Assembly (NCBI RefSeq): GCF_029490015.1
Contig: NZ_CP120468.1
Location: 558,001-622,000, forward strand
Length of the DNA: 64,000 bases
Direction of reading: 5' to 3'
From: Halobaculum limi
Lineage (GTDB): Archaea > Halobacteriota > Halobacteria > Halobacteriales > Haloferacaceae
Shown here piece by piece: positions 6,416 to 24,725 of the stretch. Made by a program: the position numbers and the translations under genes. Within the stretch, counting starts at the first letter, position 1, and each line of letters starts with the position of its first letter. The notes beneath the pieces are model-generated. The model had not been told where the DNA came from, searched no databases, and worked only from the letters and a program-made list of their open reading frames with translations.

Positions 6416-9400
6416 TCAGTCCCGCCGCGTGGCCAGCAACGCCGCCGCGAGCAGCGCGACAACCGCGAGCGCAGAGCTGAATCCGGGGAATGTCGTCGTT
6501 GTGGATTGGCCACCGGTATCCGTACCGGTCGCCGTCGCCGTGTTGACATCGTCGGGCGTGCTCGTCGATGTCGACGTTGGCGTGCTTGTCGCGGTGCCTG
6601 TGTCGTCCTGGCCGCCGTCGTCGGCCGGGACACCGATGGCGAACGCCGAGAAGCCGGGCAACGCAGCCGTGACTGTGCCATCGCCGTTCGCAGTTGTCTC
6701 TAGTGCCTGCCACTCGCCGTCGTGGTAGCGGTAGAGCGCAACGTCTTCAAGCGAAGCACCTGCCGGCAATGCGGAGTTGTCGACGGAGACGGTCATCGAC
6801 GCCTTGTCCATACCGGATGTCTCGAGTCCGATGGCGTCCGCACGGAAGTAGGCGACTCCCTCGGCGTTCGAGAGGGCGGGCGCACCCTGCGGCGACGTGC
6901 TTGGCGGGGTGAACTCGATGCGGAACGACGGGGCCGCGAACGTGAAGTCGAAGGCGACGCGGTCGACGGTGACGCCCGCACCGCTGATCCCGGGAACCGT
7001 CGTCGACGGCGTCGCACCCATCGAGATGTCGCGGACGTTGACAGTCGCACCCGAGGAGGTAGCGATCGAGGAGATCTTGGCACCGGAGCCACCGCCTCCA
7101 CCTCCACCGCCTCCACCACCGCCTCCGCCGCCACCACCGCCGGTGGAAGCGGAGGCGACAGTGAAGTTGGCAACGCGTTCACGCGTCAGGCCGTCGTCGT
7201 CGACGACTGTGATGCGGATAGTGTGGTCACCCGCTGTGAGGTCGGCGAGGGATATCTCAACCGTCCCGCCGCTGACACTCGCTTGGTCAGTGACGTCCGC
7301 ACCGTCGAGCATCACCGTGATTCCAGACGCTGGAACGGTGCCGTCGGCGTCACCGTAGGCAGCGGTGATCGTCACCGAGTCCGTGCCCGCCGGAACAGTG
7401 CCGTCGGTGAGCGGTGTCACCGAGATAGTGCCGAGGCTCGGCTTGACGCCACCGTCGGAGACATCCTCGTCTGCGGCCGCGATTTCGAACGTCTTCGAGA
7501 CGCTCGCCTTCTCGCCAGCCTGGTCGACCAACGTCGCCTCAAGCGTGTGCGTCGTGTTGTTCTCCAAGCCGTACGCCGTGTACACGATCTTGTCATCGGT
7601 GATGACCGCCGTGTCAGTGACGTCCTCGTCGTCGAACGTCACTGTGATCGCGCTGGCGTTGACCCCACTGAGCGCGTCGGAGATACGCAGTTCCGTTGTG
7701 ACCCGCGAGTTGCCCGAGGGGAACGTCGCAGGTCCGGTGCCCGTCGGTTCGGGTGTGAATACCGTGTCGTCAAGCGTCGGTGCGGCGGTGTCGGCTTCGG
7801 CCGACACTGACCGCGTCAGCGTCTCGGTGTTGCCCGCGCGGTCGGTGACGGAGACGGTGAAGTCGTACGTCTGTCCCGGGGTCGGGTCGTCGACCGTGAA
7901 CGTCACGTAGCCGTCATCGACGATCGTCTCATCGTTGATCGAGTCGCCGTTGAGAGAGACCGTGACTGACTCGTTTGTTGCGGGAACACCGCTCGCCGCG
8001 TCAGCGTACTCGACGCGGAACTGTTTCGAACTTGCACCGTAGGCAATCTCCGTCTCGTTCGTGACGCTCGTCGACAGCGACGGTGCTGCTGTGTCTTCCT
8101 CGACGGTGAACGTCGAGGTCTGCGTCTCGACGTTGCCCGCCTGGTCGGCGACGGTCACGGTCACCGTGTGTTCACCTGTGCCTTCGAGACCGGTCGCGTT
8201 GACAATCAGTTGGTCGTCGTCAACGTTCGCCGTCACCGACGAGACGTTCGACACCGGTTGGCCGTCGAACTGCACGGAGACGGCGCTAACGTTGATGCCG
8301 GTCTCTTGGTCGTAGTAGAACGATTCGACCGTGACGGTGTCAGTGTCGTACTCGAACGTCTCGCCGTCTTGGGAGACGCGCTGAATCGTCGGGTCGCTGG
8401 TGTCGACGAGGACAGCACCATACGTCGAGAAATGCGTGACGTTGAGCACGAAGTACTCAGTGCCATCGCGTGTCTCGACAGTCGTCTCACCAACTTCCTC
8501 CCACTCACCAGTAGACTCGTTGTACCGACGGATAGTGACGTTCGCCCGAGCGCTCTCGGGGACGGTCGCGGCCGGAATTCCGATCTTCGCGTACGAGAGG
8601 TTCTCCGAGAGTGAGTCACCAAGTTCGCCCTCGATGAACTGCGCTCCCGAGAGATCACGCGACAGCTGTGCCAGCGGCGTCGAACTCGTTGTTAGCGAAG
8701 CGACCGCTCCACTCACGTTGTCCGACTTGGTGTACAGTTCGATGAACGTCTGGCCGTTAGCGATAGTGACCGTACCGTTCGCGTCGACCTCGACATCGGT
8801 GACGACGTTCGTCGTCGACTGTGAGCCGGCCGCGTTTCCGGCCGCGTCCGTCGCGTTCGCCTCGACGGTGTAGTTGCCGTTCGACTGGAGCTGGAACGTC
8901 GACGTGTAGCGACCATCGCCGTCGGCGTCGGTCACGGTGACGGCCTTGGTCGACCCGTCGGGAAGCGTGACTGTGACCGTCGGTGCGCCAGGAAGCGCCT
9001 CGTCGGTGGTGACCGTGACACGTCCGGTCGACGCGTTGATTGCACCTAACGATGCGCCGAGCGTCGGTGCCTCAGTGTCGAGCGAGAGTGTCTCGCTCGC
9101 GGTCTCGTTGGCCGTGTTTGCGGCCGCGTCGGTCGCGACCACCTCGACGGTGTAGTTGCCGTCCGGGACGCCCGAGAGGTCGAGCGGCGTCGAGAAGGTG
9201 CCGTCTGAGGCCACCGTCGCGGTCGTCTCAGTCGACGACAGCGAGGTAGTCGAGCGGGCGACAACCGTTACGGTCGACACGCCCGACTCGTCGTCGGTCA
9301 CGCTGCCTGAGACCACAACCTCAGAGTTCCCGTTCGCGTAGCGAGTGCCATCACGGACGACGCCGCCTGACACCGAGTCAACGGTGACATCTGGTGCATC

Positions 9401-11620
9401 CGTGTCAACGTCGACCGTCTCGGTGACGGTGGCACTGTTGCCTGCAGCGTCGACGCTCGTCACTTGGACGGTGTAGGTTCCGCTCGGGACTGGTGTGCCG
9501 TCGTCTGTTACGTCCCACGGGACGGTTGCCTCGCCGTCAGCAACCGAGTCGGTCAGCAAGCCTGTGAAGACGTTCGAACCGTCAGGACCGGTAATCGTGA
9601 TCGTCACCGGCGCTTGCGTCAGGAATCCGGGGTTGAGGTTCAGATTCGGCTCCTCAACCGTCAGATCGAGCGTAAGCGGCTGGTTCGGGCTCACTCCATC
9701 CGTACGCGATGGTGTGACCGAGACGTTCGGTGCCGTCCGGTCGACCGTAATGGTGCGCGTGCTCTGTCCGACGTAGTTGCCGAGGTTGTCGACCAGCGCG
9801 ACCGTCACCGTGTGCTCACCCTCCGCGAGCGCAGTCGTGTTCACTGTGAACTGCGTCGTCGAGAGGCCGTCGGTGATCGTCGTCCACGAGCCGTCGTCGA
9901 CGCGGTAGACCGCTCGCTGGATACCATCAGTCGCAGTCACCTCGTACTCAAGCGTCACTTCGCCGTTCACAACCACACCCGAATCAGGCGCGGTGATCGA
10001 CGTGTCGGCGTCAGGGTTGGTCGAGCGGTCGATCGTGACCGTAGTGGGCGACTTGTCGTTGACCGCAAGCGTGTACGGTCCAGCGTCACCGAACCGCTGA
10101 ACAAACGTGACTGTCTCCGTCGAATCGCCGTCGACGGTGATCGTCTCGTTGTCGACCGCGGTTCCGTCGCGATATAGCGTCAGCGTCGTGTTGCCGGCGA
10201 CGTCACCGGTGTTCTCGACGGTCGCGTTCACTGAGATTGCATCAGACGTGAACGCACTCTTCGGCGAGACGGTGTAGGTCGTCGTGAGGTTCGCCGGGTC
10301 AAGCACTTCGACCGTGGTCGGGGGCAGGTCATTCACCGTCACCTCGTACGCTCCGACTGCGAGGCCGCGGGCGAACTCGACGGACTTCGTCTCGCCGCCA
10401 GCAACGGTCACAGTCTCACTACCGACGGCGTCACCGTCGATCACCAGCGAGACGTTTCGGGTTTCAGGCTCATCGCCAGTATTCTGGACTGTGGCATTCA
10501 CGCCGAGCGTCTCATTGGACAGCAAGACGCCGTCGTCGGAGACATTCTCCAGTCCGTACGTGACCGTCACGTTCGCGGGTGCAAGCGCCGTGAACGTCGT
10601 GCTCGCTGTGTCCGTGTTGTCCGCGCCGTCGCGAACGGTGAGGGATACGTCGTACTCACCGGCCTGTGCGGGCGTGAACGTCGTGTTCTCGCCGCTCAGT
10701 TGCGTTTGCGTTCCGTTCGGAGCCGTAACAGTCCAATCGTAGTCAACAACGCCAACATTATCGCTGGAACGGCTCCCGTTAAGCCGAACCGTGCCGCCGA
10801 GCGTGAACTCGCTCCGGTTGAGGTCGAATCCCGCTGTTGGGCTTGTCCGGTCGACGACGGTGACGACTGTGCTCGCGTTGGCGGTGGCGTTGTCATCGTC
10901 GACGACTTCGACTCGGATCGTGTGGTTGCCTGGCTCTCGGAAGCTGACGTCGATGACTGAGCCGTTCCGCTCGGACTGGAACTGGCCGTCGACGTACCAT
11001 CGAAAGGATTCGGTCGTTCCGTCGGCGTCACTGCTGCCGCTGGCGTCGGCGGTGACGGTCTCGTTCACCCCCGGTTCGCCTGGCGTCGTGGTGACGCTCG
11101 CACTCGGCGGCTGATTCACGCCGAGTGATGCACCCGAGGTTGCGGTCACGTCATAACTGTCGCCGGCCTCATCGCCGAGGGCGTTGACTGTCACGCCCAC
11201 ATCGACTTGTCCGGAGGTTTCACCCTCTACCGTAACCGTTGCAAGCGTGGCCGACCCCGTATCGTCGGTGTCAGCCCCGAATGCGGTCAGCGTGATCGAG
11301 GTGTTGTCGTCGTTCGTTGTGACACGTGACTCGAACGGACTTCCCTCGAAGGTGTGGTCGGTGATCCGTGCATTCGAGTTGTCGAGCGCGAACGTCACAT
11401 TGTACGCGCCAACGCCGCCGTCAGCATTGTCAACGACAACGGCGAATGTAGTGGTCTCGTTTGATTCAACAGTCGCCTCGCCAGGCGAGACGCTGACGGT
11501 GGTGCCCCCAGCAGCGGCCGCAGTCGTCGCCGACAGCGGCACCGCAAGCACCGACAGGATCATCAGTGTCGCGAGCACGACCGCACGAACGCGGTCGCCA
11601 CGACTCGGTGTATCAGTCAT
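6416..11620 (-). CDS. Giant PGF-CTERM surface protein with N-terminal cohesin-like domain and Ig/PKD repeats
   Basis: 1734 residues. A signal peptide (~1-38) is followed by a cohesin-like domain (~40-168; SVSPGEATVESNETTTFAVV, GVGAYNVTFALDN, DDTGSATLATVTV). Then come two PKD domains (~170-350), two CARDB domains (~350-530), and a long array of bacterial-Ig/FlgD-like repeats rich in DTTAP/DAAGN motifs, interrupted by a PGF-pre-PGF-like segment. The C-terminal part has a Gly run (~1492-1512), a PGF-pre-PGF domain and a Thr/Ser linker. It ends with a PGF motif, a membrane helix and basic residues, which is the PGF-CTERM signal processed by archaeosortase ArtA and lipid-anchored in haloarchaea. 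Its ATG overlaps the upstream protease stop (TGATG), so the two are co-translated. I infer that it anchors or organises the dockerin-bearing protease at the cell surface. Confidence 0.85.
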   Translation of the reverse strand: MTDTPSRGDRVRAVVLATLMILSVLAVPLSATTAAAAGGTTVSVSPGEATVESNETTTFAVVVDNADGGVGAYNVTFALDNSNARITDHTFEGSPFESRVTTNDDNTSITLTAFGADTDDTGSATLATVTVEGETSGQVDVGVTVNALGDEAGDSYDVTATSGASLGVNQPPSASVTTTPGEPGVNETVTADASGSSDADGTTESFRWYVDGQFQSERNGSVIDVSFREPGNHTIRVEVVDDDNATANASTVVTVVDRTSPTAGFDLNRSEFTLGGTVRLNGSRSSDNVGVVDYDWTVTAPNGTQTQLSGENTTFTPAQAGEYDVSLTVRDGADNTDTASTTFTALAPANVTVTYGLENVSDDGVLLSNETLGVNATVQNTGDEPETRNVSLVIDGDAVGSETVTVAGGETKSVEFARGLAVGAYEVTVNDLPPTTVEVLDPANLTTTYTVSPKSAFTSDAISVNATVENTGDVAGNTTLTLYRDGTAVDNETITVDGDSTETVTFVQRFGDAGPYTLAVNDKSPTTVTIDRSTNPDADTSITAPDSGVVVNGEVTLEYEVTATDGIQRAVYRVDDGSWTTITDGLSTTQFTVNTTALAEGEHTVTVALVDNLGNYVGQSTRTITVDRTAPNVSVTPSRTDGVSPNQPLTLDLTVEEPNLNLNPGFLTQAPVTITITGPDGSNVFTGLLTDSVADGEATVPWDVTDDGTPVPSGTYTVQVTSVDAAGNSATVTETVDVDTDAPDVTVDSVSGGVVRDGTRYANGNSEVVVSGSVTDDESGVSTVTVVARSTTSLSSTETTATVASDGTFSTPLDLSGVPDGNYTVEVVATDAAANTANETASETLSLDTEAPTLGASLGAINASTGRVTVTTDEALPGAPTVTVTLPDGSTKAVTVTDADGDGRYTSTFQLQSNGNYTVEANATDAAGNAAGSQSTTNVVTDVEVDANGTVTIANGQTFIELYTKSDNVSGAVASLTTSSTPLAQLSRDLSGAQFIEGELGDSLSENLSYAKIGIPAATVPESARANVTIRRYNESTGEWEEVGETTVETRDGTEYFVLNVTHFSTYGAVLVDTSDPTIQRVSQDGETFEYDTDTVTVESFYYDQETGINVSAVSVQFDGQPVSNVSSVTANVDDDQLIVNATGLEGTGEHTVTVTVADQAGNVETQTSTFTVEEDTAAPSLSTSVTNETEIAYGASSKQFRVEYADAASGVPATNESVTVSLNGDSINDETIVDDGYVTFTVDDPTPGQTYDFTVSVTDRAGNTETLTRSVSAEADTAAPTLDDTVFTPEPTGTGPATFPSGNSRVTTELRISDALSGVNASAITVTFDDEDVTDTAVITDDKIVYTAYGLENNTTHTLEATLVDQAGEKASVSKTFEIAAADEDVSDGGVKPSLGTISVTPLTDGTVPAGTDSVTITAAYGDADGTVPASGITVMLDGADVTDQASVSGGTVEISLADLTAGDHTIRITVVDDDGLTRERVANFTVASASTGGGGGGGGGGGGGGGGGGSGAKISSIATSSGATVNVRDISMGATPSTTVPGISGAGVTVDRVAFDFTFAAPSFRIEFTPPSTSPQGAPALSNAEGVAYFRADAIGLETSGMDKASMTVSVDNSALPAGASLEDVALYRYHDGEWQALETTANGDGTVTAALPGFSAFAIGVPADDGGQDDTGTATSTPTSTSTSTPDDVNTATATGTDTGGQSTTTTFPGFSSALAVVALLAAALLATRRD
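7080..7143 (-). repeat. Poly-glycine coding tract
   Basis: An imperfect run of CCACC/CCGCC triplets encodes about 20 nearly consecutive glycines just before the PGF-pre-PGF domain of the giant surface protein. It acts as a flexible hinge between the repeat stalk and the membrane-proximal domain. Such triplet runs can change length without breaking the frame. Confidence 0.8.
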
Positions 11621-14600
11621 CAGTTATCCCCTCCATTGAGGGCTGCGAACAGTTTCTGCACGTCAACGACGTTCACCTCACCGTCGCCGTTGAAGTCGAA
11701 GGCGCCGGCGTTCGACTGGACGGCGTCGTTCTTGTAGTGCTTCCAGAGCGTCTGGACGTCCGAGACGGTGAACTCGCCGTCGCCGTTGACGTCCTCGAGT
11801 TTGCTGTCGCCGTCCACGTCAGTCGGCCGGGCGCTGTTGTTGCCGATGGGCGGGACGTCTCCGACTTGCACCGTCGTCGTCGCATTGGCGTCGACGATGT
11901 ACGGGAGGCCGGGCTCGTCACTGATTTCGTTCGGCGTCGCCGTCAGCGTCGTCGACCCGTTCGTGCCGCCAGCGACCGTGACCCGCAGGAGCGGGACAGA
12001 GCCGGTGTCGTTCGTGTCGAGAAGGGCGGCAGTGACCCGAGCGGAGCCGCCGTCGCTCGCGATATCGACGTTGGTCGACCCGCCGTCGGGAACGACCGTC
12101 ACGCCGGTGATGCGTGCCGTCGAGACATTCGCAAGCGAGAGCGTTACATCGAGCGCTCCAACGCCGTTCGTCGCGTTCGCGAGCGTAAGGTTCACCGTCC
12201 GTTCGTCGCCGGTGTTTACCCGAACCGTGCTGGGTTCGAACGTCGTCGAGACGCGGTTGGACACTGTCACACGTGTCCCCGAGAGTGCATTCACACGGAC
12301 TTTGTGGGTGCCGCGGTCGAGCGTTCGCGAGAACGTCACCGTCTCTGTGTCACCGGCAGCGACGGTCACCGTCTCGTTGGCAACGACCTCCTCATCGACG
12401 AACAGGCGCACCGTTTCGGTGTCAGTGGTGTTGCCATTGTTCGTGACTGTCGCCGTCACGTTCACCGGGGAACCGGTCTCGACCTCGGTCGACTCAAGCG
12501 TGTAGTCGACGTCGATGCCGGCCGTCTCGGTGGTGTTGAGTTGCACCCTGACCGTCGTGTCGTTCGTGACAGTCACGTTGCGCGTGCGAGTCTCGTCGAC
12601 GTAGCCGGTCGCGTTGCCGGGTTCAACCTCGATCAGGTAACTCCCGTTGGCTTCGAGACCTCGCTTGCCTCCGATCGTGTAGTAGCCCTGTTCAGACGTG
12701 TTCGCGATGAACCCGAGCGTCGCCGATTCGATGGTCGTCGGATTGATTGTCACGTTTGCGTCGTGGACCGGGTTCCCCGACTCGTCAACAACGCGAACGT
12801 CCAACACGCCAGCAGCGTCAGGGATGGTCTCCGTGCCGACTGAGACGCTCCCACTTCCAACTGTGACGTTCGTGGGGACGTAGAGGTCGGTCACGCCGTC
12901 ACGTGGGAAGAACACGCTGGTAGAGTCGTTCTGCTGCACGTACCCGATACGGTACGTCGCATTACCTGGGACGACCGTGGAGAAGTTCCCGGTGGCATTC
13001 GTCTCGGTCGGATCAAACACTCCTGGGCCGTTGACGACCGCGAAGTCACCGCTGAGGCCGTCGCCGCGTTCGTCGACGAGCTGTCCGGAGATGGTCGTTT
13101 CCTCGTTGAGGACGATGGTTGCGTTCGTCCGGTTCTGGACGTCAAACTCTTTCACCGTCTCCAGATACGGGCCGGTCGCCGGAATACGAATCTGGAGCGT
13201 GCCGTTCGCTTCGACCCCGGGCGAGTCAGCGTATTCGAGGACGACCTCGCCATCGGCGTTCGTGTAGCCGGGGTGGTGGCCGGTCGCATCACCGTTCACC
13301 GGCATCACGTCGATGTCGGAGACGGAGACGGGATTGCCGTTTGAATCGACCACGGTGATGTTGATCAGATGTCCCTCCGGAACCGTCCGGGTTCCTAGAT
13401 CGACGTCAGATCCATTCGTATCGAACTCGGTGAATGCGTAGAGGTCGGCACGCCCGTCTTTCGGGAAGTTGGGCGTGGTGTCGCTGAAGTCGGTCTGTTT
13501 GTACGCAAGTTCGTACCCAGTCGAGTTCGGTTCGACCTTCAGCGTGTACGTCCCGTCCTCGTTCGTCTGAACCTCGTTCTCTCGGAAGTTGTCACCGAAC
13601 GTTTCGATGGTCTGACCAGAGACGTTCGAGCCATCGGCGTACTTCAGCCGACCGCTTGCGTTGATCAGATTCAGATCGCGTTCAACCTGTTCGTAACCGC
13701 CATCAACGTACGTCTCGCTGGTGTTCGCCGTCGCGACGCCGACCGTGTAGTCGAGGTACGCGTCAGCGGAGCCTTCAGGCACGTCGGGTGTGACCTCGAA
13801 CGTCACCGTCCCGTCAGGGTCGGTTGTTCCAACCTTCACCCCGCCGGGCATCTCGCTGGGAACGTTCGCCTCGTAACTGCGGTTCTCGAAGGTGTCCACC
13901 TGATAGCGCCACACGACGGCCGCGCCCTCGACCGGGTCGCCATTGCGGTCGGTGACGTTCACCGTGACCGTCGTTGATACATCATCGGCAAAGCCGCCGT
14001 TGACAGTCGTCTCGGCGGAGACGCCCTCAGCGTCCGCCCAGTCGACCCAGAACGTGTTGTCGTCCATACTTCGCGTTCGGGTCGTCATCTCGTACTCCGC
14101 GTACTCGTCGGACGCGGGTGGCGTCGAGTCGGTGAAATTCCGCGTGATAGACTCGTTGGATCCGGGGTCGACGAACCCGACGAACACGTCATCGTTGGAC
14201 TCGTAGTCGCCCTGGTTCACGATCACCAGTGTGCGCTGCCCCGGAACTGGATCGTACGTGTCGTTGCGGTAGTCGATCCGCGTGCGGAGCGTCCCGTCGT
14301 CGTACCGAATATCCGGTAGCGGTTCGACCACCCCACCGGATCCAGAGGCACGGGAGATGTCCGGGTAGAGGAACTCGTCTTCCGTGATGGCCGTCCCGTC
14401 TGGCTGAGAGAGATTCCGGACGACTGCGTACACCTGTTGTTCGCGCTCGTCGAAGGATGCGTTCACCCAGTCTGTGTCGGGCGCGTCGACCGTGACGGTC
14501 GTGTACCCGTTGGCGTCGGTCGTCACCTCGTACACGTCGCCGCCGTCGGTGTAGACGTTCACCGTGGCGTTATCGACGTAACTGTCGGTCTCGTAGTCGT

Positions 14601-17600
14601 ACAGTCGGACGTTGATATCGTACGTGTCGTTGGGAACGCGGTAGTCACCCTCAACGTGAGACCCCCAACTGTCGTACGTGAACAGCCCGTACCGCTGTCC
14701 AGTGTCCTCCTGCGGGTCCGTCCGGTTGTCGTAGTACTGTGAGGACCGCCCCTCGATAGCGACGACCGACAGTCCGCTGTAGTCCTCCGACGTGGACGAT
14801 TTCGCTTCCACGATGCCGAAGCGTGCATCGATGGGCGACTCCGCGGTGAACGTCCCGACGCCGTTGGCGACGGGGTCGGCCGTCCCGGTGACGACCGTCG
14901 TCGCGGTTCGCGACGTCGAGATGTTCTCAAGTGCCTCACGGATCTCGCGTTTGTCTCGGTCGGTCAGCCGAACCGACGAGTCGTCGCCAGTGCGTGCGGC
15001 CCGTCGGACCTGCTTCAGCCGCGTGAGTGTGTCAGTGGGCAGGTTGTTCGACAGCGACGCGACCGTCCGGTCGGTGATCCACGTCACCCGGTAGTCGGCG
15101 CTGGCGTTCACCGGCCCCTCACCGTAGGTGGTGTGCTGGAAGCTGACGGTCGTGGACCCGCCGGGGGCGACAGTCATCACCTCTGGACCAAGTTGAGTGT
15201 AGGCGTCCTCGCTAGAGACGATGTTGAGGTCGCCGACAGAGGCGTACTCCGTCGCGTTCGAAAAGTTCGACGACAGCGCGAGCCGGATATCGAGGTGGTC
15301 GTCGCTCTCGTCGAGTGACGTCTGCGAAAGGTCCACAGTGAACGTGACCACGCCATCAGCAACCTGGAGATCGTCGAACACGATCGGCTCCCCGGAGTGG
15401 CTGCCAACCTCGGCGGAAGCGGGTCCGTCGTACGGCGTCATATTGCCGTCGTCGCTGTACACCGGGACGTTGACCGTCACCGTCGAGTTGGCCTCGACCT
15501 CGTAGTCACGATATTCAGCCACGTGGTTCGGGAACTCGCTGAACCCGCTGTCGACGATGCAGTACTCGATACAAGCATCACTGAGGTCGTACGGTTGAGT
15601 GACCGAATTCCCACGGTCGTCGGACACCCGGACGTCGTAGTAGCCGAGTCCGACGGAGAAGTTGTGAATCGCGCGTCCCTGACTGTCGGTCAGCGTGGTC
15701 GCGTTCGCGACCACGGCGCCGGAATCGTTCATCACCTCGAAGGTGATGGGAACGCCGCTTACCGGCTGGCCGGCGGAGGCGTTCCACGCGATACCGAGTG
15801 CCTTCAGGTTCCGATCGGAGACGTTCTCGCTGAGTTGCCCCGAGTTCGGGAAGCGGTCGGTGTCGGTGCTCGAGTCGAGCGTCCGCGAGACGATGTGGTA
15901 CTCTGCGGGCCCGGTGTTCTCGAACGGTCCAGCGTAGATGTCGAGGTACATCTCCACCAACTGCTTCGACTGCGTACCGTCGTACACGGAGAAGTTGTCC
16001 GCGTGCTCGTATGCGTCCGCGCTCGCGTTATATCGCTGTTCGTCGATGTAGAGGCTGAACGACGACCCGTCGAACGTCCGGTTGAGGACCGCGCGGAAGT
16101 CCGCGCCGCCCTGTGCCAGATCGCCTGTGGAGTCGTTACTGTCGGCGTCGATGTAGACGGTGAACGACCCGTTGTACGTTCCCTCGCCTGCGAGGGCGAT
16201 CTCGATCTCGTCGTTGACGATCTTCCGACTGGTGTACCGCAGGTCTGGCGCGTTACTGGCGTCACCCGCCGGGTCCGTCGCTGGGTCGAGTTCGAGGTTG
16301 ACGTACGTCTCGCCGGTGTCGCCGATGCCCGCGAACAGTTCCCGCGAATCCACGTTGGTGGGGGAAGCCGAGAGCACCGAGGCGTTTGTGCTGTTGACCG
16401 CCGCCCACGCGTCAAGCATTCCCGCGCCCGCTGCGTTCGCCGGAGCGGGTACTTCCTGGGCGCTCGCGGTGAGCGTGTCGCGGACCTCGGTGTTGCTCAT
16501 CGTCGAGTCGGCGTCGAGCATTAGTGCGATGGTCCCCGAAACGTGCGGGGTGGCCATCGACGTGCCGGAGTACCCGACGTATCCCCCGCCCGCGTCCGCT
16601 GAGATGACGTCGGTGCCGGGGGCGATGATCGTCACGCCCTGGCGCTTGTCGGCACCGTATCCGACTGGACCGCGACTGGAGAACGGTGCGACTGCCTGCG
16701 AGCGGTACTCGGACGCGCCAACGGTGATTGCACCTTCGGCGGCGCCGGGACTGCCAACGCTGCGGTCGCCGAAGACATACCCTGAGTTACCCGCCGCGAT
16801 GACCGGGAGCACGTCGTTGCTCTCGGCGAGGCTCGTCACCGACTTCGACAGTTCGTCGGAGCCGTTCGACGGGTACACCGGAACCGCAGTATAGTTGTAC
16901 GTGACGTTCACGTCGTTGCTGTTCTGTACCTCGAGCGACCAGTTGCCGGTCGTCGAGATTGTGCCGCTACTCGGCTTGTACTTGCGGAAGATGAGCCCGT
17001 CAGGGACCTCGCCGCTCCCGAACGCCCAGCCAGCGGAGTATCGGTCAAGCGCCACCTCACCGTTCGGATTGCGGAAGGCGACGGAGGCGTTGTCGAGTGC
17101 CGCTGCCGCCTCGCTGGCGTTGACCGTCGACCCGTTGACCGCGACTGGTTCGACGATGACCATCACGTACGACGCCTCGTACCCAGATTCGTTGAAGTTC
17201 TGATACGCCGAGTCAGCGTCGCTGTACAGCGTCACGTCGTGGCTCGCCGAACTACCGCTTTCGACGGTCTGTGTTCCCGTGTACGAGTCCGTCAGCGGCG
17301 ACAGTCCCAGACTAGCGGAGATGACATCGGCGTCGTTCTCCGCGCTCCACTCAAACGCCGAGAGGATCCACGAGAGGCGACCACTCCCCTGGCTGTCGAG
17401 CGCTCGGGCATCGAAGAGGTTCGCGTCAGGGGCGACGCCGACCGCTTGGTCGGCGTCACGTCGGCCGGCGACTGTCGCGGCGACGTGGGTGCCGTGGCCG
17501 TCGGGGTCTTGTAGGTCTGTGAGGTTCTCGTCGGTGAAGTCTTTCTCCGTCGTGACCTGCCCCTGCAGCGCTGGATGTGTGTCGTCGATACCGGAATCGA

Positions 17601-18318
17601 CGACGCTGACGTTGACGCCCGCGCCGGTGACGCCGCGGTCTTGTACGGCGTCTGCACCGACGTACTCGGTCCCCCAGGCGCTCTGACTGCTGGCGTCACG
17701 TTCGATTCCGGCGGGCGACGTGGTCGTGTTGTACTTTGAGAGGATGCGGTCGAGCGCCGGAACGCCCGTTCCGCCGTCAGCCGCCGTTACCTTCCGGTCG
17801 TAGACGATGCGTTCGACGTTCGGGAGGGCCGCGAGGTCACGGATTGTCTCCCCATCAGCGCTGACCGCGAGCGCGTTCCGTGCCCAGAACGTCCGCAGAT
17901 CAGACGCGGAGCCATCGGCACGGCGCTCTCGGATGAGATCACGAGCACGCTCCTGTTCGCTGTTTGCCAGCGATTTCATCTGTGAACGCGACTCGGCCGG
18001 CGACATCCCGCCGAGTTGGAACGCTTCCTGCGGTTGCGTATCAAAGACGACGAGAATGGGAACTGGGTCGTCAGTCGCGTCGAGTCGGTAGGAGACTCCG
18101 GGACCGATACTCGCCGAAGAACTGTCCGACGAGCGGTCAGCTGATTGCGTGGAACCATCACCGAGATCCGGTGGTGGAGAGTCAGTTGACGGAGCGGTCA
18201 CCGACGATGGAGTGTCTGCCGGTGATTGTCCGCCGACTGCGGCGCCGACCGGAACTGCGACCGTCGACACCAGCATCAAAACCGTCAGAAAAAGTGCAGC
18301 AATGCGTCGATCTCTCAT
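11620..18318 (-). CDS. Secreted subtilisin-family (S8) protease with C-terminal CARDB, cohesin-like and dockerin modules
   Basis: 2232 residues, far longer than ordinary halolysins (about 400-530). Signal peptide ~1-30; an inhibitor-like propeptide follows to ~200. The catalytic domain has Asp241 (VVDSG), His275 (DGHGTHVA), oxyanion Asn511 (AAGNSG) and Ser587 (GTSMATPHVSG), so it should be active. An insertion of ~145 residues (~340-485) separates His from Asn. After it come mixed beta-sandwich regions, CarboxypepD-reg-like repeats (e.g. INITVVDSNGNPVSVSDI), a CARDB domain (~1920-2005), a cohesin-like domain (~2010-2155) and a dockerin with two Ca-binding repeats (DVNGDGEFTVSDV, DFNGDGEVNVVDV) at the C-terminus. 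The stop overlaps the downstream cohesin-protein start. It probably digests extracellular protein while held at the surface. Domain limits are approximate. Confidence 0.88.
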   Translation of the reverse strand: MRDRRIAALFLTVLMLVSTVAVPVGAAVGGQSPADTPSSVTAPSTDSPPPDLGDGSTQSADRSSDSSSASIGPGVSYRLDATDDPVPILVVFDTQPQEAFQLGGMSPAESRSQMKSLANSEQERARDLIRERRADGSASDLRTFWARNALAVSADGETIRDLAALPNVERIVYDRKVTAADGGTGVPALDRILSKYNTTTSPAGIERDASSQSAWGTEYVGADAVQDRGVTGAGVNVSVVDSGIDDTHPALQGQVTTEKDFTDENLTDLQDPDGHGTHVAATVAGRRDADQAVGVAPDANLFDARALDSQGSGRLSWILSAFEWSAENDADVISASLGLSPLTDSYTGTQTVESGSSASHDVTLYSDADSAYQNFNESGYEASYVMVIVEPVAVNGSTVNASEAAAALDNASVAFRNPNGEVALDRYSAGWAFGSGEVPDGLIFRKYKPSSGTISTTGNWSLEVQNSNDVNVTYNYTAVPVYPSNGSDELSKSVTSLAESNDVLPVIAAGNSGYVFGDRSVGSPGAAEGAITVGASEYRSQAVAPFSSRGPVGYGADKRQGVTIIAPGTDVISADAGGGYVGYSGTSMATPHVSGTIALMLDADSTMSNTEVRDTLTASAQEVPAPANAAGAGMLDAWAAVNSTNASVLSASPTNVDSRELFAGIGDTGETYVNLELDPATDPAGDASNAPDLRYTSRKIVNDEIEIALAGEGTYNGSFTVYIDADSNDSTGDLAQGGADFRAVLNRTFDGSSFSLYIDEQRYNASADAYEHADNFSVYDGTQSKQLVEMYLDIYAGPFENTGPAEYHIVSRTLDSSTDTDRFPNSGQLSENVSDRNLKALGIAWNASAGQPVSGVPITFEVMNDSGAVVANATTLTDSQGRAIHNFSVGLGYYDVRVSDDRGNSVTQPYDLSDACIEYCIVDSGFSEFPNHVAEYRDYEVEANSTVTVNVPVYSDDGNMTPYDGPASAEVGSHSGEPIVFDDLQVADGVVTFTVDLSQTSLDESDDHLDIRLALSSNFSNATEYASVGDLNIVSSEDAYTQLGPEVMTVAPGGSTTVSFQHTTYGEGPVNASADYRVTWITDRTVASLSNNLPTDTLTRLKQVRRAARTGDDSSVRLTDRDKREIREALENISTSRTATTVVTGTADPVANGVGTFTAESPIDARFGIVEAKSSTSEDYSGLSVVAIEGRSSQYYDNRTDPQEDTGQRYGLFTYDSWGSHVEGDYRVPNDTYDINVRLYDYETDSYVDNATVNVYTDGGDVYEVTTDANGYTTVTVDAPDTDWVNASFDEREQQVYAVVRNLSQPDGTAITEDEFLYPDISRASGSGGVVEPLPDIRYDDGTLRTRIDYRNDTYDPVPGQRTLVIVNQGDYESNDDVFVGFVDPGSNESITRNFTDSTPPASDEYAEYEMTTRTRSMDDNTFWVDWADAEGVSAETTVNGGFADDVSTTVTVNVTDRNGDPVEGAAVVWRYQVDTFENRSYEANVPSEMPGGVKVGTTDPDGTVTFEVTPDVPEGSADAYLDYTVGVATANTSETYVDGGYEQVERDLNLINASGRLKYADGSNVSGQTIETFGDNFRENEVQTNEDGTYTLKVEPNSTGYELAYKQTDFSDTTPNFPKDGRADLYAFTEFDTNGSDVDLGTRTVPEGHLINITVVDSNGNPVSVSDIDVMPVNGDATGHHPGYTNADGEVVLEYADSPGVEANGTLQIRIPATGPYLETVKEFDVQNRTNATIVLNEETTISGQLVDERGDGLSGDFAVVNGPGVFDPTETNATGNFSTVVPGNATYRIGYVQQNDSTSVFFPRDGVTDLYVPTNVTVGSGSVSVGTETIPDAAGVLDVRVVDESGNPVHDANVTINPTTIESATLGFIANTSEQGYYTIGGKRGLEANGSYLIEVEPGNATGYVDETRTRNVTVTNDTTVRVQLNTTETAGIDVDYTLESTEVETGSPVNVTATVTNNGNTTDTETVRLFVDEEVVANETVTVAAGDTETVTFSRTLDRGTHKVRVNALSGTRVTVSNRVSTTFEPSTVRVNTGDERTVNLTLANATNGVGALDVTLSLANVSTARITGVTVVPDGGSTNVDIASDGGSARVTAALLDTNDTGSVPLLRVTVAGGTNGSTTLTATPNEISDEPGLPYIVDANATTTVQVGDVPPIGNNSARPTDVDGDSKLEDVNGDGEFTVSDVQTLWKHYKNDAVQSNAGAFDFNGDGEVNVVDVQKLFAALNGGDN

Positions 18319-18636: not shown

Positions 18637-19296
18637 TCAGCGGCGATCGTCTTGCGTGTCAGTCGTCGCCACAAACTCATCGAGTCGACCGTGAAGCATC
18701 GCACGAACGGGCGTAACCACGTCGTAGTCGGCGGTGTGTCGTTGGAGCATCGTGCCCGTCAGGGTCGCGAGCACCCACGTACCCACCGCCTCCGGGTCGA
18801 CGCTCTCGTCGATCACTCCCGACTCAACCCCTTCAGCGACAGCGTCAACAAGACGGTCGCGGAGGTGATTGTCGATGCGCGTGAACTCCGCGCGGAATCG
18901 CGGTTCCGACACCGCTTGCGCCCGCAGGTCGATCATTGCTCGCTGGGCCTCTGCCATTTCTTCGTCCACCTCTGGGGCGAGGTAGATGTCGACGAACGCG
19001 CGAAGGCGATCGATAGGGCCGTCGGCCTCGCGTTCGGCCTCTTCGAGCATCGCGAGGAAATGGTCACCAGCAAACTCCAGAAAGCCCGCAATGAGGTCAT
19101 CTTTCGAGTCGTAGTGGTAGTACAGCAGGGATTTGCTCTTCTCGAACTCCTCGGCAATGTGGGCAACGCTCAACTCGGCGTACCCGTGGGTCCGCAACGC
19201 TCGATAGGTCGCTTCCATAATGAGGGTGTTCACGTCCGGTTGCTCGACTGCGTCGCAGTCGGCGACCTGTTCGGACCCCTCTGTCCCGTCGCTCAT
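18637..19296 (-). CDS. TetR/AcrR family transcriptional regulator
   Basis: 219 residues. The N-terminal helix-turn-helix shows the TetR pattern MEATYRALRTHGYAELSVAHIAEEFEKSKSLLYYHYDSKDDLIAGFL, quoted here in segments: MEATYRALRTHGYAEL, SVAHIAEEFEKSKSLL, YYHYDSKDDLIAGFL. An all-helical ligand-binding and dimerisation domain follows. It lies directly after an ABC permease-ATPase-COG1361 set on the same strand, a pairing common in haloarchaea, so it probably represses that set. A matching palindrome is found at the head of the operon (22595-22608). The inducing ligand is unknown. Confidence 0.88.
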   Translation of the reverse strand: MSDGTEGSEQVADCDAVEQPDVNTLIMEATYRALRTHGYAELSVAHIAEEFEKSKSLLYYHYDSKDDLIAGFLEFAGDHFLAMLEEAEREADGPIDRLRAFVDIYLAPEVDEEMAEAQRAMIDLRAQAVSEPRFRAEFTRIDNHLRDRLVDAVAEGVESGVIDESVDPEAVGTWVLATLTGTMLQRHTADYDVVTPVRAMLHGRLDEFVATTDTQDDRR

Positions 19297-19377
19297 CAGT
19301 TATTCACTCTCGCGGGGCAACGGTAATGAACTCCTCGGAGTGGGCGACCCATACGAGAGACCCGACTCACGGTCGAA

Positions 19378-20559
19378 TCACCCACGAAGCGCCTCCACGG
19401 GTCGTTTTCGGGCCGCTGCCCACGCGGGGTAGATACCCGCGAGGATACTCGCGATGATGCCGAACGCCATCCCGCCGACGACGTACTGCAGTCCCTCCCA
19501 CGAGAATCCGAACGCCGCACCGAGGAGTGCGTCATTGATGATCGCGACGACACCGAGCGCGAGCGCTCCGCCCAACAGCGACCCACCGATGCCGAGTAAC
19601 GCCGCCTCCGCGAGCATAATCCGGACGATATCGGATTTTTCGTAGCCCACCGCTCGGAGGACGCCGATCTCTTCACGACGCTCGATAGCTGCCATCAGCA
19701 TCACGTTCGCGATGGAGACACCGGCGACGACCAGTGAGATGGCCCCGATGCCGACGAGGAAGAGGTTGATGAGGCGGAACGCCTCGTCGATCTGCTCGGC
19801 CACGTCGCCGCGTTCGAACACCCCGACGATCTGTCGGCGGCCGTTGAACGTGCGCTTGATGCTCATCGCCGTTTCGTTGGCGACGGTCGCATCCTCTGAG
19901 CGGACGATCACCTGCGCGTAGCGGTCACCGTCGAACTCGCTGGGCGGCAACACGAACGCGTCGTTCGGGTTGGCGATGGCGGCTTGCCCCTCCTGGGCGA
20001 GTATCGCCTTCACGCGGTAGGACTCGGTCGTCGTCTGCACCTGTCCGTCCTCGACGCTGGTGCGCCGAAGCGTCACTTTCGACCCCGGGCGGAGGTCGTA
20101 CCGGTCGGCCAGCGTTGAGCCGACGAGCAGGCCATTGCGCCAGTTTGCGGGAATCGACCCCTCGCGGACCTCGTAGAGTCCTCCAGGGTCGTCGACGCCG
20201 TAGAGTGTGGCGCTGCCCGCCGCCGCGCCGTCGTCGAGGACCTCGGCGTTCTCCTGTCGCAACGGTACGATCTCTGCCGTGCCGCTCACCCGGTCGATGG
20301 TCCCGACGTCGGACTCGGTGAGGTAGCCGTTCTCGTTGTCCTCGCCCGCGAACACCTGGACGTCGGCGCCGATGGTGCCGAGCGTGTCCAGTTGCGACTC
20401 CTTGAACGCGACGCCGCCCGCGCCGATAGCGCCGATGGCGACGACGCCGATGACGATGGCCGCGACCGCGAGGATCGACCGTGTTCGCGCACGCGAGACG
20501 TTGCGCCGCGCCATCAACATCGCAGGGAACAGTCCCCACAGGCGGTCAAGCGGATTCAT
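19378..20559 (-). CDS. ABC transporter permease, MacB/FtsX type
   Basis: 393 residues with the MacB/LolE layout: an N-terminal membrane helix (ARTRSILAVAAIVIGVVAIGAIG), a ~200-residue extracytoplasmic domain, and three C-terminal helices with the FtsX motif NVMLMAAIERREEIGVLRAVG. It ends in an AARKRPVEALRG-type C-terminus typical of the family. The start overlaps the ATPase stop (ATGA). With the ATPase and the COG1361 protein it forms a tripartite system. In bacteria MacB-type systems act as mechanotransmitters or exporters; here the extracellular partner would be the COG1361 protein. Substrate unknown. Confidence 0.88.
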   Translation of the reverse strand: MNPLDRLWGLFPAMLMARRNVSRARTRSILAVAAIVIGVVAIGAIGAGGVAFKESQLDTLGTIGADVQVFAGEDNENGYLTESDVGTIDRVSGTAEIVPLRQENAEVLDDGAAAGSATLYGVDDPGGLYEVREGSIPANWRNGLLVGSTLADRYDLRPGSKVTLRRTSVEDGQVQTTTESYRVKAILAQEGQAAIANPNDAFVLPPSEFDGDRYAQVIVRSEDATVANETAMSIKRTFNGRRQIVGVFERGDVAEQIDEAFRLINLFLVGIGAISLVVAGVSIANVMLMAAIERREEIGVLRAVGYEKSDIVRIMLAEAALLGIGGSLLGGALALGVVAIINDALLGAAFGFSWEGLQYVVGGMAFGIIASILAGIYPAWAAARKRPVEALRG

Positions 20560-21365
20560 CCGGTGACTGCCTCCGCGTCCTCTCGGACGGTACCGTCGAT
20601 GAGGTTGACGACGCGGTCTGCGAACTGCGCGACGTAGTCGTCGTGGGTGACGGTGACGACGGCTACGCCTTCATCCGTGATGGCGTCGAATTCCGCGAGA
20701 ATCTGGTCACCCGTCTCGCGGTCGAGGTTGCCCGTCGGTTCGTCCGCAAGCAGGAGTCGCGGTTCGTTCACGAGCGACCGGGCGATGGCAACCCGTTGTT
20801 TCTGCCCACCGGAGAGTTCGTCGGGGTAGTGGTCGAGGCGGTCGCCCAGCCCCATCCGGTCGAGGAGGTCGGCCGCTGTCTCCCGCGTCCGCTTCGGCGT
20901 CCGGTCGAGCAGTCGAGGGACTTCGACGTTCTCCACAGCAGTCAGCGTCGGGATGAGGTGGAAACTCTGGAAGACGAAGCCGATGGTCTTCTTTCGACGA
21001 CGGGTACGTTCAGCGTCGTCAAACGTCTCAACGTCGACGCCGTCCAACTCGACGACGCCGCTGGTGGGCACGTCGAGGAGGCCCAGCATATTGAGCAGCG
21101 TCGACTTGCCCGACCCCGAGGGGCCGACGATGGCGACGAACTCGCCGGGGTCGACCCGGAAGTCGATGCCGCGCAGCGCCCGCACCGTCTCGCCGCCGGT
21201 GACGTACTCTTTCACCACGTCGCGACCCTGGATGACCGGGTCGACGGCGGCGGTCGGTGTGTCGGCGTTCGCATCCGTGTCTGCGTCGCCAGCGGCGGCA
21301 GCCTCGCCGACGGCTTCTCCGAACGGTTGCTCGCCGCCGTCGGTTCGGAACCTACGTCCGGACAT
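20556..21365 (-). CDS. ABC transporter ATP-binding protein, MacB/LolD type
   Basis: 269 residues: a ~45-residue polar leader rich in Ala/Asp, then a LolD/MacB-type ATPase. Walker A is [12 protein letters not shown], the Q-loop is [19 protein letters not shown] (the LolD signature), the signature is [15 protein letters not shown] and Walker B is [12 protein letters not shown]. The start is taken at the ATG (21365) of a TGATG overlap with the COG1361 gene; a GTG one codon earlier is possible. Its partner is the downstream FtsX-type permease. Confidence 0.88.
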
Positions 21366-22555
21366 CACCGGCGCAACACGAGTGCGGCCCCGAGGGCGAC
21401 CACGAGGAGACCGAGTGCAGTCGGAACGAGCGGGATTCCTCCGAGCGGGCCGGTCTGCGGTGTCGGCGTCGGCGTCGACAGCACCGACGGTGAGACGCGT
21501 ACGTCGGTCGTGAATGATTGCTCAACGCCGTCAATAACGTACTCGACGCGGACGGGGACGGTAGTGCGATCACCGGAGAGTTCGGCGTTGAGGTCGAACG
21601 AGGCGAAGTCGCTGCCCTCGATCTCACCGACGAAGTAGTCGGGTTGTGGGTCGGCGGGCGTGACGCCATCGGCGTCGGCGACGCTCACTACAACGCTTTG
21701 CACGTCCGTGCCACCGACGTTAGCTGCGGTTCCAGCCACCTGCAACACACCGCCGGGGCCGCGCGTCACGCTGACGCCGGTGAGCCGGATCCGACCGGGG
21801 TTCTGTGGCTCGGTGAAGTCGGCGTCGAACGTCCGCGTGACCGTCCGGCGGTTCCCGTCATCGGTGTATGATAACTCGACGGTGACGGGGAACTGTCCGG
21901 CCTCATCTGCTTGCACCGGGAACGAAAACACGGCCGTCTCGCTGCCGCCGAGTGTCGCGCGAACGCGGCTCTTGGTTCGGAACGCGAGGCCGTCGGCAGC
22001 CGAGGAGACACGAACGTCAAGCTGGCTGATCGACCCCGAGAGCCCATTCGCGACCGTCACGTTCACCGTTCGCTCCGCGCCGACGACGGCGTCGGTCACG
22101 TCAAGCTCCAGTTGTGGGTTCGGCTGGCGAACGTCGACGGTCACTGGCTGGACGACGTACTTACGGTCACCCTGCGGGCCAAGGAGTGCCGCGTGGACGT
22201 ACACCGTTTGCTCGCCGGTGTCTTCCAGCGAGACGTTGAACTCGTACGCTCGCTGCGTGCCAGGTGCGAGACCGTCTGAGACATCAAGGGCCGCGAGTTC
22301 CTCGTCATCATCGTAGGAGCGACTGGACACCTCAGCGACCGACAGGTCGGTGATGCGGTAGGAGTCGTCGCTGTCATCGTCGTTGCGCAACGTCGTCGTG
22401 ATGGTGAACGGTTCATCAGGGACAGGATCGTCCGTCGATACGTCGGTCGACATCGTCACGAACGTGTCGGCGGCCGCGGGCGCAGCGACGCCGGCGACGC
22501 TTGCGACGACGAGGACGACACACATCGCGAGGGTGGATGAGCGGGGAGGTTGCAC
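21365..22555 (-). CDS. COG1361 surface protein, accessory to ABC transporter
   Basis: 396 residues: signal peptide (~1-29, ending APAAADT), three to four beta-sandwich repeats with NEW3/COG1361 patterns (DPVPDEPFTITTTLRNDDD, AVVGAERTVNVTVANG), a Pro/Thr linker (TPTPTPQTG) and one C-terminal membrane helix ending in two arginines. It should sit outside the membrane anchored by its C-terminus. As first gene of the operon COG1361-ATPase-permease(-TetR) it is the likely external subunit of the transporter. A TATA element (complement of 22579-22592) lies 25-37 bases before its ATG, so the transcript is nearly leaderless. Confidence 0.85.
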   Translation of the reverse strand: MQPPRSSTLAMCVVLVVASVAGVAAPAAADTFVTMSTDVSTDDPVPDEPFTITTTLRNDDDSDDSYRITDLSVAEVSSRSYDDDEELAALDVSDGLAPGTQRAYEFNVSLEDTGEQTVYVHAALLGPQGDRKYVVQPVTVDVRQPNPQLELDVTDAVVGAERTVNVTVANGLSGSISQLDVRVSSAADGLAFRTKSRVRATLGGSETAVFSFPVQADEAGQFPVTVELSYTDDGNRRTVTRTFDADFTEPQNPGRIRLTGVSVTRGPGGVLQVAGTAANVGGTDVQSVVVSVADADGVTPADPQPDYFVGEIEGSDFASFDLNAELSGDRTTVPVRVEYVIDGVEQSFTTDVRVSPSVLSTPTPTPQTGPLGGIPLVPTALGLLVVALGAALVLRR

Positions 22556-22578
22556 AGTCTGCCGGACTCACGTATGGC

Positions 22579-22608
22579 TCTCCGATAAATATTCTGAACG
22601 ACCGTTCA
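22579..22608 (-). promoter_or_regulatory. Promoter and TetR-type operator of the COG1361-ABC operon
   Basis: The complement strand carries an AT-rich TATA region, ATATTTATCG, 25-37 bases before the 22555 start. Directly upstream is TGAACG-AC-CGTTCA (22595-22608), a palindrome with 6-base arms. It occupies the BRE/TATA border, where a bound repressor would block TBP/TFB. The operon carries its own TetR gene, which is the obvious candidate to bind it. Confidence 0.6.
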
Positions 22609-22687
22609 ACAATTCGATCACACACGAAATACACCCGACCGTGCATACATCAACACCTACTTGTCGGCCGCGTATACACACTCGTGT

Positions 22688-23269
22688 ATGTACATCGGAC
22701 GCTTCGTCGTTGTCGGCCCGAAAGTAGGTGCATACCGCGTCTCCTCGCGGTCGTTCCCAAACCGCCAGGTGACTCGCCGCGGTGACGACACGCTGACGGT
22801 CGTGCCCACGGCCGACGCAGAGGAGACGGACAACCCGTACGTCTCGTACAACTGCGCTCGAACCGCCGGCGAGGGCGTCGTCGTCGGCAACGGGTCGCAC
22901 GTCGACCCGATCGCAGAGAAGTACGACCGTGGGTACCCCGCTCGCGACGCTCTCGTGGAGGCGTTGCACGCGATGGACTACGAGAAAGACGACTACGACA
23001 CGCCCCGCGTCGCGGGCGTCGTCGAGGAGGACGCGGGCTACATCGGCATCGTCAGACGGGACGCGCTAGTCGTTCGGGAGGTCGACGAACCACACATCGT
23101 CGCCACGTACGAGGAGGACGACCCGCGGGCGTTCGAGTTCGAACCTCGAACTGCCGTCGCTGCAGCGAGAACCGTCTACGGCCTCGACTACGAACACGCC
23201 GTCTGTGCCGCCGGCGTCCACGTCGGCGAGGAGGCAGTGAGTTTCGGCATCGAGAACGGCGAGGAGTAG
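22688..23269 (+). CDS. purO: IMP cyclohydrolase, archaeal type
   Basis: 193 residues beginning [11 protein letters not shown]. The sequence matches the archaeal PurO family throughout: [43 protein letters not shown] and a C-terminal [14 protein letters not shown]. PurO closes the ring of FAICAR to give IMP, the last step of purine synthesis, replacing the cyclohydrolase half of bacterial PurH. I start at 22688, where the family's MYIGR begins, not at the upstream ATG at 22661. It is divergent from the COG1361 operon. Confidence 0.92.
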
Positions 23270-23350
23270 GTAGCCGCGTCCTCGCGAGCGGTCCCCGAAT
23301 CACCGCTCTCCGTCGCCGGAGGTAACACACATCGCTCCGTAGGCGAGGGT

Positions 23351-24043
23351 ATGCGACTCGGCGTCGTCTCGGACGTCCACGGCAACCGTATCGCTCTCGA
23401 CGCGGTCCTCGACGATATGCCGCCGGTCGACGGGCTCGTGTGTGCCGGCGACGTGGTCGGGTACAATCCGTGGCCAGCAGCGTGTCTCGAACGCGTGCGT
23501 GACTGCGGCGTGCCGACGGTGATGGGCAACCACGACCGCGCGGTGGCGACGGGGACGGCGTTCCGATTCAACCAGATGGCGAGCGCCGGCGTCGAGTACG
23601 CCCGCGAGCGACTCGACGACGACGCTATCGAGTGGCTCGCATCGCTCCCCGACCGGCGAACCGTCGCCGACGGGCGGGTCGCGGTCGTCCACGGCCACCC
23701 CGCAGACCCCGACCGCTACACCTACCCCGACGACTTCTCGGGCGACCTGCTCGACGTGGCCGCGGACCGCCTCGGCGTCGATGCCGGGGAACTGGACGCG
23801 CTGATCCTCGGGCACACGCACGTACAGGGGTACGAGGTGTTTCCAGAAGGCGTCGTCTGCAATCCCGGGAGCGTGGGCCAACCCCGCGACGGCGACCCGC
23901 GGGCGGCGTACGCGGTCCTCGACGTGGCGGAGCGAACGGTCGAGCAACGGCGCGTCGAGTACGACATCGACGCCGTCGCCGACGCGGTCGAGGAGGCCGG
24001 GTTGCCCGAGCGGATCGGGAGTCGGCTGTACGACGGAAAGTGA
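23351..24043 (+). CDS. Calcineurin-like metallophosphoesterase
   Basis: 230 residues. The five metal-binding blocks are present in order: SDVHGN, GDVVGYNP, GNHD, VVHGHP and LGHTH. The GDVVGYNP-PWPAACLERVR arrangement and the NPGSVGQPRDGDPRAAY ending are typical of the YfcE/DUF2437-like branch of small phosphoesterases acting on phosphodiesters or nucleotides. The substrate cannot be assigned. It follows purO with an ~80-base gap and may have its own promoter. Confidence 0.88.
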   Translation: MRLGVVSDVHGNRIALDAVLDDMPPVDGLVCAGDVVGYNPWPAACLERVRDCGVPTVMGNHDRAVATGTAFRFNQMASAGVEYARERLDDDAIEWLASLPDRRTVADGRVAVVHGHPADPDRYTYPDDFSGDLLDVAADRLGVDAGELDALILGHTHVQGYEVFPEGVVCNPGSVGQPRDGDPRAAYAVLDVAERTVEQRRVEYDIDAVADAVEEAGLPERIGSRLYDGK

Positions 24044-24095
24044 GGGCGCGAGGAGACGACGAGGCGACGAGCGGCGACCGGCGACCGGTGACCGC

Positions 24096-24536: not shown

Positions 24537-24725
24537 ACCCGCCCACTCACCCTCCCAAGTGAAAAACTCCCCGCGACCGCCGGGTGGTAATTCGACCAAG
24601 GGCGACGGCCGGCGGCGACCCTTGCGACAGAGGACAGGATTAAACGCGAACCCGTGCTACCCGGCGGCATGAATCACCACGTATCCGTGAATCGTCGACC
24701 GTCTGTCTCCGGGGTGGCGGCGTAG

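Follow-up and report, generated by a model that had tools for sequence, protein, structure and literature searches.

Among the described systems with which the present locus can be compared, A. fulgidus offers a two-gene unit, AF2375/AF2376, for which PMC9705933 reports a strong and specific binding pair in vitro, AfuDoc75 (ORF2375, 432-506) with AfuCoh76 (ORF2376, 29-162). That source credits the binding to Voronov-Goldman 2011 and Haimovitz 2008. Because a 506-aa gene at locus L108 has a match at E 2.3e-94 to 2xdh, a cohesin structure from A. fulgidus, we read it from its sequence as AF2375. The gene ends in a cohesin followed by a dockerin; the next gene, of 190 aa, overlaps it and encodes a cohesin and, at its C-terminus, a PGF-like anchor (AF2376). 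ANME proteins with up to 5 cohesins have been described, in a paper that also refers to an opinion that large scaffoldins are absent from archaea (PMC9012536). The dockerins of haloarchaeal glycoside hydrolases and lyases have been read as substrate-binding, no cohesin partner having been identified (PMC10963439, PMC13260240). Lastly, a ScaO-like scaffoldin carries an S8-peptidase-like domain that is listed as a domain of unknown function (PMC11557425).

Here we analysed a window of 64,000 nucleotides from Halobaculum limi, by which we mean the whole stretch of DNA and not the genes under study. It contains a protease gene, P0001, directly followed by a second gene, P0002 (Table 1). Together they show the two-gene layout of AF2375/AF2376, that is, a gene with cohesin and dockerin and then a gene with signal, cohesin and anchor. 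One base is common to both genes, and the junction reads ...GATAACTGATGACTGAT....

Table 1. Features of the P0001/P0002 locus, in window coordinates.
Feature	Position	Strand	Length or evidence
P0001, secreted S8 subtilase with C-terminal cohesin-dockerin tail, without own anchor	11620..18318	-	2232 aa
P0001 N-terminal hydrophobic signal sequence, about residues 1-27	18238..18318	-	read from sequence
P0001 Peptidase_S8 catalytic domain, residues 214-633	16420..17679	-	Pfam + motifs
P0001 cohesin-fold domain directly N-terminal to the dockerin, about residues 2020-2155	11854..12261	-	iterative profile, AlphaFold2, Foldseek/VIA
P0001 type I dockerin, two F-hand repeats, residues 2161-2232	11623..11838	-	Pfam + alignment
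TGATG stop/start overlap of P0001 and P0002	11618..11622	-	
P0002, anchored partner: signal, cohesin, PKD, Ig/CARDB-like repeats, PGF-pre-PGF, PGF-CTERM	6416..11620	-	1734 aa
P0002 N-terminal cohesin-fold domain, about residues 38-170, predicted dockerin receptor	11111..11509	-	profile; congener's equivalent modelled
P0002 PKD domains, residues 169-343	10592..11116	-	Pfam
P0002 Ig-like repeats (Big_13, Big_7, CARDB-like)	6971..10003	-	Pfam
P0002 PGF_pre_PGF domain	6635..6760	-	NCBIfam
P0002 PGF-CTERM archaeosortase sorting signal, residues 1707-1734	6419..6502	-	Pfam + NCBIfam

A preliminary description of this DNA had named a 2232-residue subtilisin ending in a two-repeat dockerin, a TGATG overlap with the next gene and a PGF-CTERM membrane anchor on that gene, and all four statements held. 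The open reading frame is present and its Peptidase_S8 domain is recognised by Pfam at E 1.7e-42, with the Asp/His/Ser triad of an S8 subtilase in the right motifs (D241, H275 and S587, and N511 as oxyanion residue, all assigned by motif). The subtilase domain is split between its His and Ser halves by an insertion of ~145 aa (residues 341-485, window 16864-17298). When its sequence is read by eye, P0001 contains neither a PGF-CTERM nor a terminal transmembrane segment. The neighbouring stretch of the window, 18637-25415, encodes a TetR regulator, MacB/FtsX-type ABC exporter genes, an IMP cyclohydrolase-like protein and a metallophosphoesterase, and we saw no link between these and the P0001/P0002 pair.

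The dockerin of P0001 passes the curated Pfam cut-off for type I dockerins (PF00404, Dockerin_1) at E 1.6e-8 and 35.0 bits against 22.9, over residues 2175-2227, and reaches 40.8 bits when scored on DNA. Both F-hand calcium loops (D1, N/D3, D5, D12) are present, DVNGDGEFTVSD and DFNGDGEVNVVD, and an extra DxDxD loop lies upstream of the two repeats. Several of the calcium-ligand positions are invariant or near-invariant across 52 relatives. Only one other dockerin in the whole genome scores over cut-off, in the distant P0003, so that the dockerin proteins of this genome are one subtilase and one PPC-repeat/PKD protein (PPC read by eye). P0003 (L004:4912-13464, on C1 at about 1.55-1.56 Mb) is a protein of 2850 aa with repeated PPC-like and PKD domains, again read by eye, and a terminal dockerin. 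It has no neighbouring cohesin, the next gene, P0004, being without one, and its dockerin may be a partner for the cohesin of P0001 or P0002.

P0002 has the features expected of a substrate of archaeosortase A: its PGF-CTERM motif lies above the curated cut-off in Pfam and NCBIfam alike, and archaeosortase A is encoded in the same genome (E 1.1e-99). The PGF_pre_PGF domain likewise scores above the NCBIfam cut-off. The Ig-like repeats probably form a stalk, a role that we infer.

The cohesins required closer scrutiny. Pfam cohesin (PF00963) found no match in P0001, in P0002, in the isolated domains or in a whole-genome scan, and single-sequence searches of Pfam and NCBIfam for the P0001 and P0002 cohesins likewise returned none. 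Relatives of the P0001 tail were found in 74 of the 170 family genomes searched, and we collected 40 loci, each spanning at most 20 kb. An iterative profile search of these loci identified 109 cohesin-like domains, among them the start of P0002 and the domain before the dockerin of P0001; exactly two cohesin-type domains occur in the whole genome, both of them in this gene pair. An AlphaFold2 model of the P0001 cohesin-dockerin fragment, built with 52 relatives, has a pLDDT of 92.6 and a pTM of 0.78. Its best Foldseek matches are cohesins, with E down to 7.4e-10 and A. fulgidus 2xdh included, and on VIA re-alignment the top 29 rows are cohesins without exception (best Z 14.6; 2xdh 13.9). The modelled N-terminal cohesin of a congener (L050), which stands in for the domain of P0002, likewise matches cohesins. 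Thus, both the P0001 domain and the congener's partner domain have the jelly-roll fold with cohesins as their best structural matches.

Profile-profile comparison points the same way. Haloarchaeal cohesins align with archaeal Pfam-positive cohesins in hhalign at a probability of 95% over 117 columns, and a profile of the archaeal cohesins matches all 109 haloarchaeal domains in a small, unfiltered (--max) search. Against whole proteins this profile matched the haloarchaeal domains weakly, 18 at E 1e-3, and did not reach the two cohesins of the window. Three strong matches of the same profile outside annotated domains resemble further unannotated cohesins. Searched as a profile against the PDB, the alignment of haloarchaeal cohesins gave weak matches, with cellulosomal cohesins leading (E 0.014). 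Since both domains miss the PF00963 threshold, we do not file them as members of that family, and regard them as divergent cohesin-fold domains. In the profile search proposed earlier the dockerin passes Pfam and the cohesins do not; the call of cohesin-like domains is correct by fold and by profile-profile comparison. The preliminary description spoke of two such domains, and two exist, but it described that of the partner alone and not the one before the dockerin in P0001. N-terminal and pre-dockerin cohesins form largely separate lineages, with 11 label changes against 34 when shuffled. The P0001 cohesin is a long branch in this tree and is weakly placed.

It had also been proposed to survey whether the two genes are kept together in other haloarchaea, with relatives that keep one gene without the other counting against the idea. 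A gene with an N-terminal cohesin directly follows 35 of 53 cohesin-dockerin genes, which is not an unbiased frequency since the Haloferacaceae loci were picked by best match, and 4 of 8 genes with a dockerin only, giving 39 dockerin genes in total. Nearly all gaps between the dockerin gene and the following cohesin gene are of -8 to +140 bases. For the remaining 18 of the 53 sampled cohesin-dockerin genes no partner lies next door, and several of these 18 belong to Haloferax clusters (G025, G030, G033-G036). The objection applies in part. At their C-termini most partners have a PGF motif, a hydrophobic segment or another dockerin, the last being an adaptor layout (L035, L066, L067). At two of these loci (L066:8700-17510 and L067:8474-17604) there are three genes, a dockerin protein of ~2040 aa, an adaptor with an N-terminal cohesin and a C-terminal cohesin-dockerin, and a short cohesin protein with a hydrophobic C-terminus, a trio that resembles enzyme, adaptor and anchor.

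Within the genus of the window, a dockerin was found in four species (G000, G013, G010, G011), each with a following cohesin gene. The partner cohesin of G011 is recognised by Pfam (E 1.7e-11), and in that species the dockerin is carried by a metallophosphatase. Annotated pairs also occur on plasmids of Halobellus sp. DFY28 (RJT37_RS19035/19030) and Halarchaeum sp. CBA1220 (EFA46_RS13025/13030), the partner being labelled 'hypothetical protein' in both records. Haloferax gibbonsii ATCC 33959, which can be cultured, likewise carries a pair of this kind. A subtilase is an unusual dockerin cargo, as the heads of most relatives consist of PKD/Ig or other domains. Among 38 family heads, PKD accounts for 20, malectin for 3 and PhoX for 3, and Peptidase_S8 is absent from the 25 commonest families among the heads of relatives.

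A sister species (G017) has an orthologue of P0001 (L129:2207-9343, 2378 aa) with 49% identity over P0001 residues 4-1999. Beyond the shared part this protein has two domains of cohesin type and a PGF-CTERM that scores above cut-off; there is no dockerin in it, and none was found in the G017 genome. Because the orthologue has a PGF-CTERM and lacks a dockerin, the homologous protease appears to be self-anchored in G017 and dockerin-tailed in the species of the window. Judged from these sequences, the dockerin of P0001 would take the place of an anchor.

Structure prediction of the dockerin with the cohesin-like domains, likewise proposed earlier, was run on the congener pair in L050. The two genes of the window are out of frame, and therefore we used this pair, which is in frame across the stop. 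The modelled chain of 243 aa ran from the dockerin through the stop, read as Gly, and the intergenic and signal segment to the cohesin of the next gene, and its alignment combined in-frame pairs with unpaired relatives. AlphaFold2 returned a pLDDT of 86.8 and a pTM of 0.76 with a disordered linker, compared with a pTM ceiling of 0.59 for this chain if the cohesin were perfect and the dockerin unplaced. A pTM of 0.76 can be reached only if the effective expected error of the dockerin is some 3-4 A. An interface is thus predicted and, as judged from pTM, the dockerin appears confidently placed on the cohesin of this congener pair. In the model of the P0001 fragment, pTM is also above the unplaced ceiling (0.78 against 0.64). 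This suggests that the P0001 dockerin may have a preferred place beside its own cohesin as well, either by X-module-like packing or by self-docking. The X-module is a domain that lies beside type II dockerins.

We consider it likely that P0001 and P0002 are a non-covalent surface-display pair in which the dockerin of P0001 docks on the cohesin of P0002. P0001 would be exported by a Sec-type route as a subtilase that itself has no anchor. P0002 would also be exported, and would be tethered to the envelope by archaeosortase A through its PGF-CTERM signal, with its cohesin held at the outer, N-terminal end of the long Ig/PKD stalk. Docking of the C-terminal dockerin of P0001 onto this cohesin would retain the protease at the cell surface, the dockerin loops probably being calcium-filled on docking. 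Here we infer the binding within the window pair, its calcium dependence, the envelope attachment and the proteolytic activity. The cohesin of P0001 itself could be a structural neighbour of the dockerin, comparable to an X-module, or a socket that receives a different dockerin protein, P0003 for example.

The domains, the gene order, the congener interface, the A. fulgidus precedent and the exchange seen in the sister species all support docking on the anchored partner. A competing possibility is that P0001 docks on itself, its dockerin taking up its own cohesin in the same chain or in a second one to give a dimer or polymer, and that the cohesin of P0002 serves another protein such as P0003. 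Cohesin and dockerin do adjoin in P0001 and in most relatives, their orientation in the model is more fixed than free domains would give, and P0003 supplies a second dockerin protein in the genome. However, such self-docking would leave the second, anchored cohesin of a conserved gene pair superfluous, and it sits poorly with the separation of N-terminal and pre-dockerin cohesins into lineages. Moreover, the strong A. fulgidus pair published in PMC9705933 is Doc75 with Coh76, which is the neighbour's cohesin. We regard self-docking as unlikely, although it keeps some weight beside the display pair.

Still less probable is that the dockerin lacks a cohesin partner and either binds substrate or is a module stabilised by calcium, the protease being simply released. 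Papers on glycoside hydrolases and lyases of haloarchaea take this view of the dockerin (PMC10963439, PMC13260240), and standard libraries give no cohesin in the genome; yet cohesins are present below the Pfam model, and a conserved neighbour gene and a predicted docking would be left unexplained. We give equally little credence to the idea that the two genes, encoding surface proteins, are transcribed together and lie side by side for shared regulation and not for binding, with the cohesin-fold domains acting as generic Ig-like spacers. Both proteins are rich in Ig-like domains and their cohesin domains fall below the Pfam threshold, but dockerins co-occur with these cohesin-fold domains and the congener model puts the dockerin on the cohesin. 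Indeed, a pure Ig spacer was rejected, as the fold matches specifically cohesins and not general Ig folds. Chance adjacency was rejected as well, because both cohesins and one of the two dockerins of the genome lie within a single overlapping gene pair.

Outside the window, a genome of another family in the same order (G404) contains a 25-kb cluster (genome 468000-493109; L131:1-19901, L137:566-9110). Four of its dockerin proteins, when scanned, have Peptidase_S8 over cut-off, and a fifth, L131_01, looks similar. Alongside them are three cohesin proteins that are shorter and have PGF-type ends, and one protein of 1258 aa in which Pfam recognises eight cohesins (E 3.2e-49). In a congener of that species (G624; L188:11162-17425), Pfam finds fourteen cohesins (E 1.4e-83) in a protein of 2087 aa encoded near two S8-dockerin genes. 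The PGF-type C-termini of both scaffoldins score just below the NCBIfam PGF_CTERM cut-off. These clusters, to which the window pair points, are candidates for the real 'protease cellulosome' counterparts, that is, proteolytic scaffold complexes in two other haloarchaea.

On balance we slightly favour a wider interpretation. Cohesin-dockerin docking would be an old and general mode of surface display in Halobacteriota, overlooked as many haloarchaeal cohesins miss Pfam; a dockerin tail could replace an archaeosortase anchor, and some lineages (G404, G624) would have built true proteolytic scaffolds. If so, their multi-cohesin scaffoldins would be the protease counterpart of the cellulosome. Earlier work took haloarchaeal dockerins to bind substrate (PMC10963439, PMC13260240); here the partner cohesins sit next door, previously unrecognised. 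This finding, together with the natural exchange of anchor for dockerin, makes the question of archaeal dockerin binding directly testable. It may also provide a salt-tolerant cohesin-dockerin pair for protein display.

With the clostridial cellulosome, the window pair shares the cohesin fold, the two-repeat type I dockerin and the placement of the cohesin on an anchored protein and of the dockerin on an enzyme. In contrast to that system, the enzyme is a protease and not a glycoside hydrolase, and P0002 would be anchored by PGF-CTERM where the cellulosome uses SLH or sortase. A cellulosome has a scaffoldin with several cohesins, and dockerin-bearing plant-polysaccharide enzymes with a cellulose-binding module. 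Here P0002 carries one cohesin and the genome two, no such set of enzymes and module is seen, and no carbohydrate-binding module over the Pfam cut-off was found in P0001 or P0002. We therefore rejected a cellulosome reading, and the term 'assembly' in the preliminary description, if taken in that sense, was overstated. The Acetivibrio ScaO-like scaffoldin (PMC11557425) is similar in having an S8-peptidase-like domain in a protein that ends in a Coh1-Doc1 unit, but unlike P0001 it is bacterial and cellulosomal and carries FN3 and galactose-oxidase-like domains. ANME surface proteins (PMC9012536) are also archaeal extracellular cohesin and dockerin proteins; unlike the window pair, their cargo is often an ABC-transporter substrate-binding protein, and no cohesin-dockerin partners are assigned among them. 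The haloarchaeal dockerin enzymes (PMC10963439, PMC13260240) share a type I dockerin in a secreted enzyme. Closest in layout is A. fulgidus AF2375/AF2376, with two overlapping genes in the order head-cohesin-dockerin and then signal-cohesin-anchor with a PGF-like end. Binding has been published for that pair, whereas for P0001/P0002 it is predicted from sequence and the congener model. The head and partner of the window pair are far larger, the head is a subtilase, the partner bears a PKD/Ig stalk, the cohesins miss Pfam and an extra DxDxD loop precedes the dockerin. Taken together, the window pair is one enzyme on one anchor, simple beside the G404 and G624 clusters. It is a pair of the AF2375/AF2376 type, and what is new relative to that type is its cryptic cohesins and giant protease cargo.
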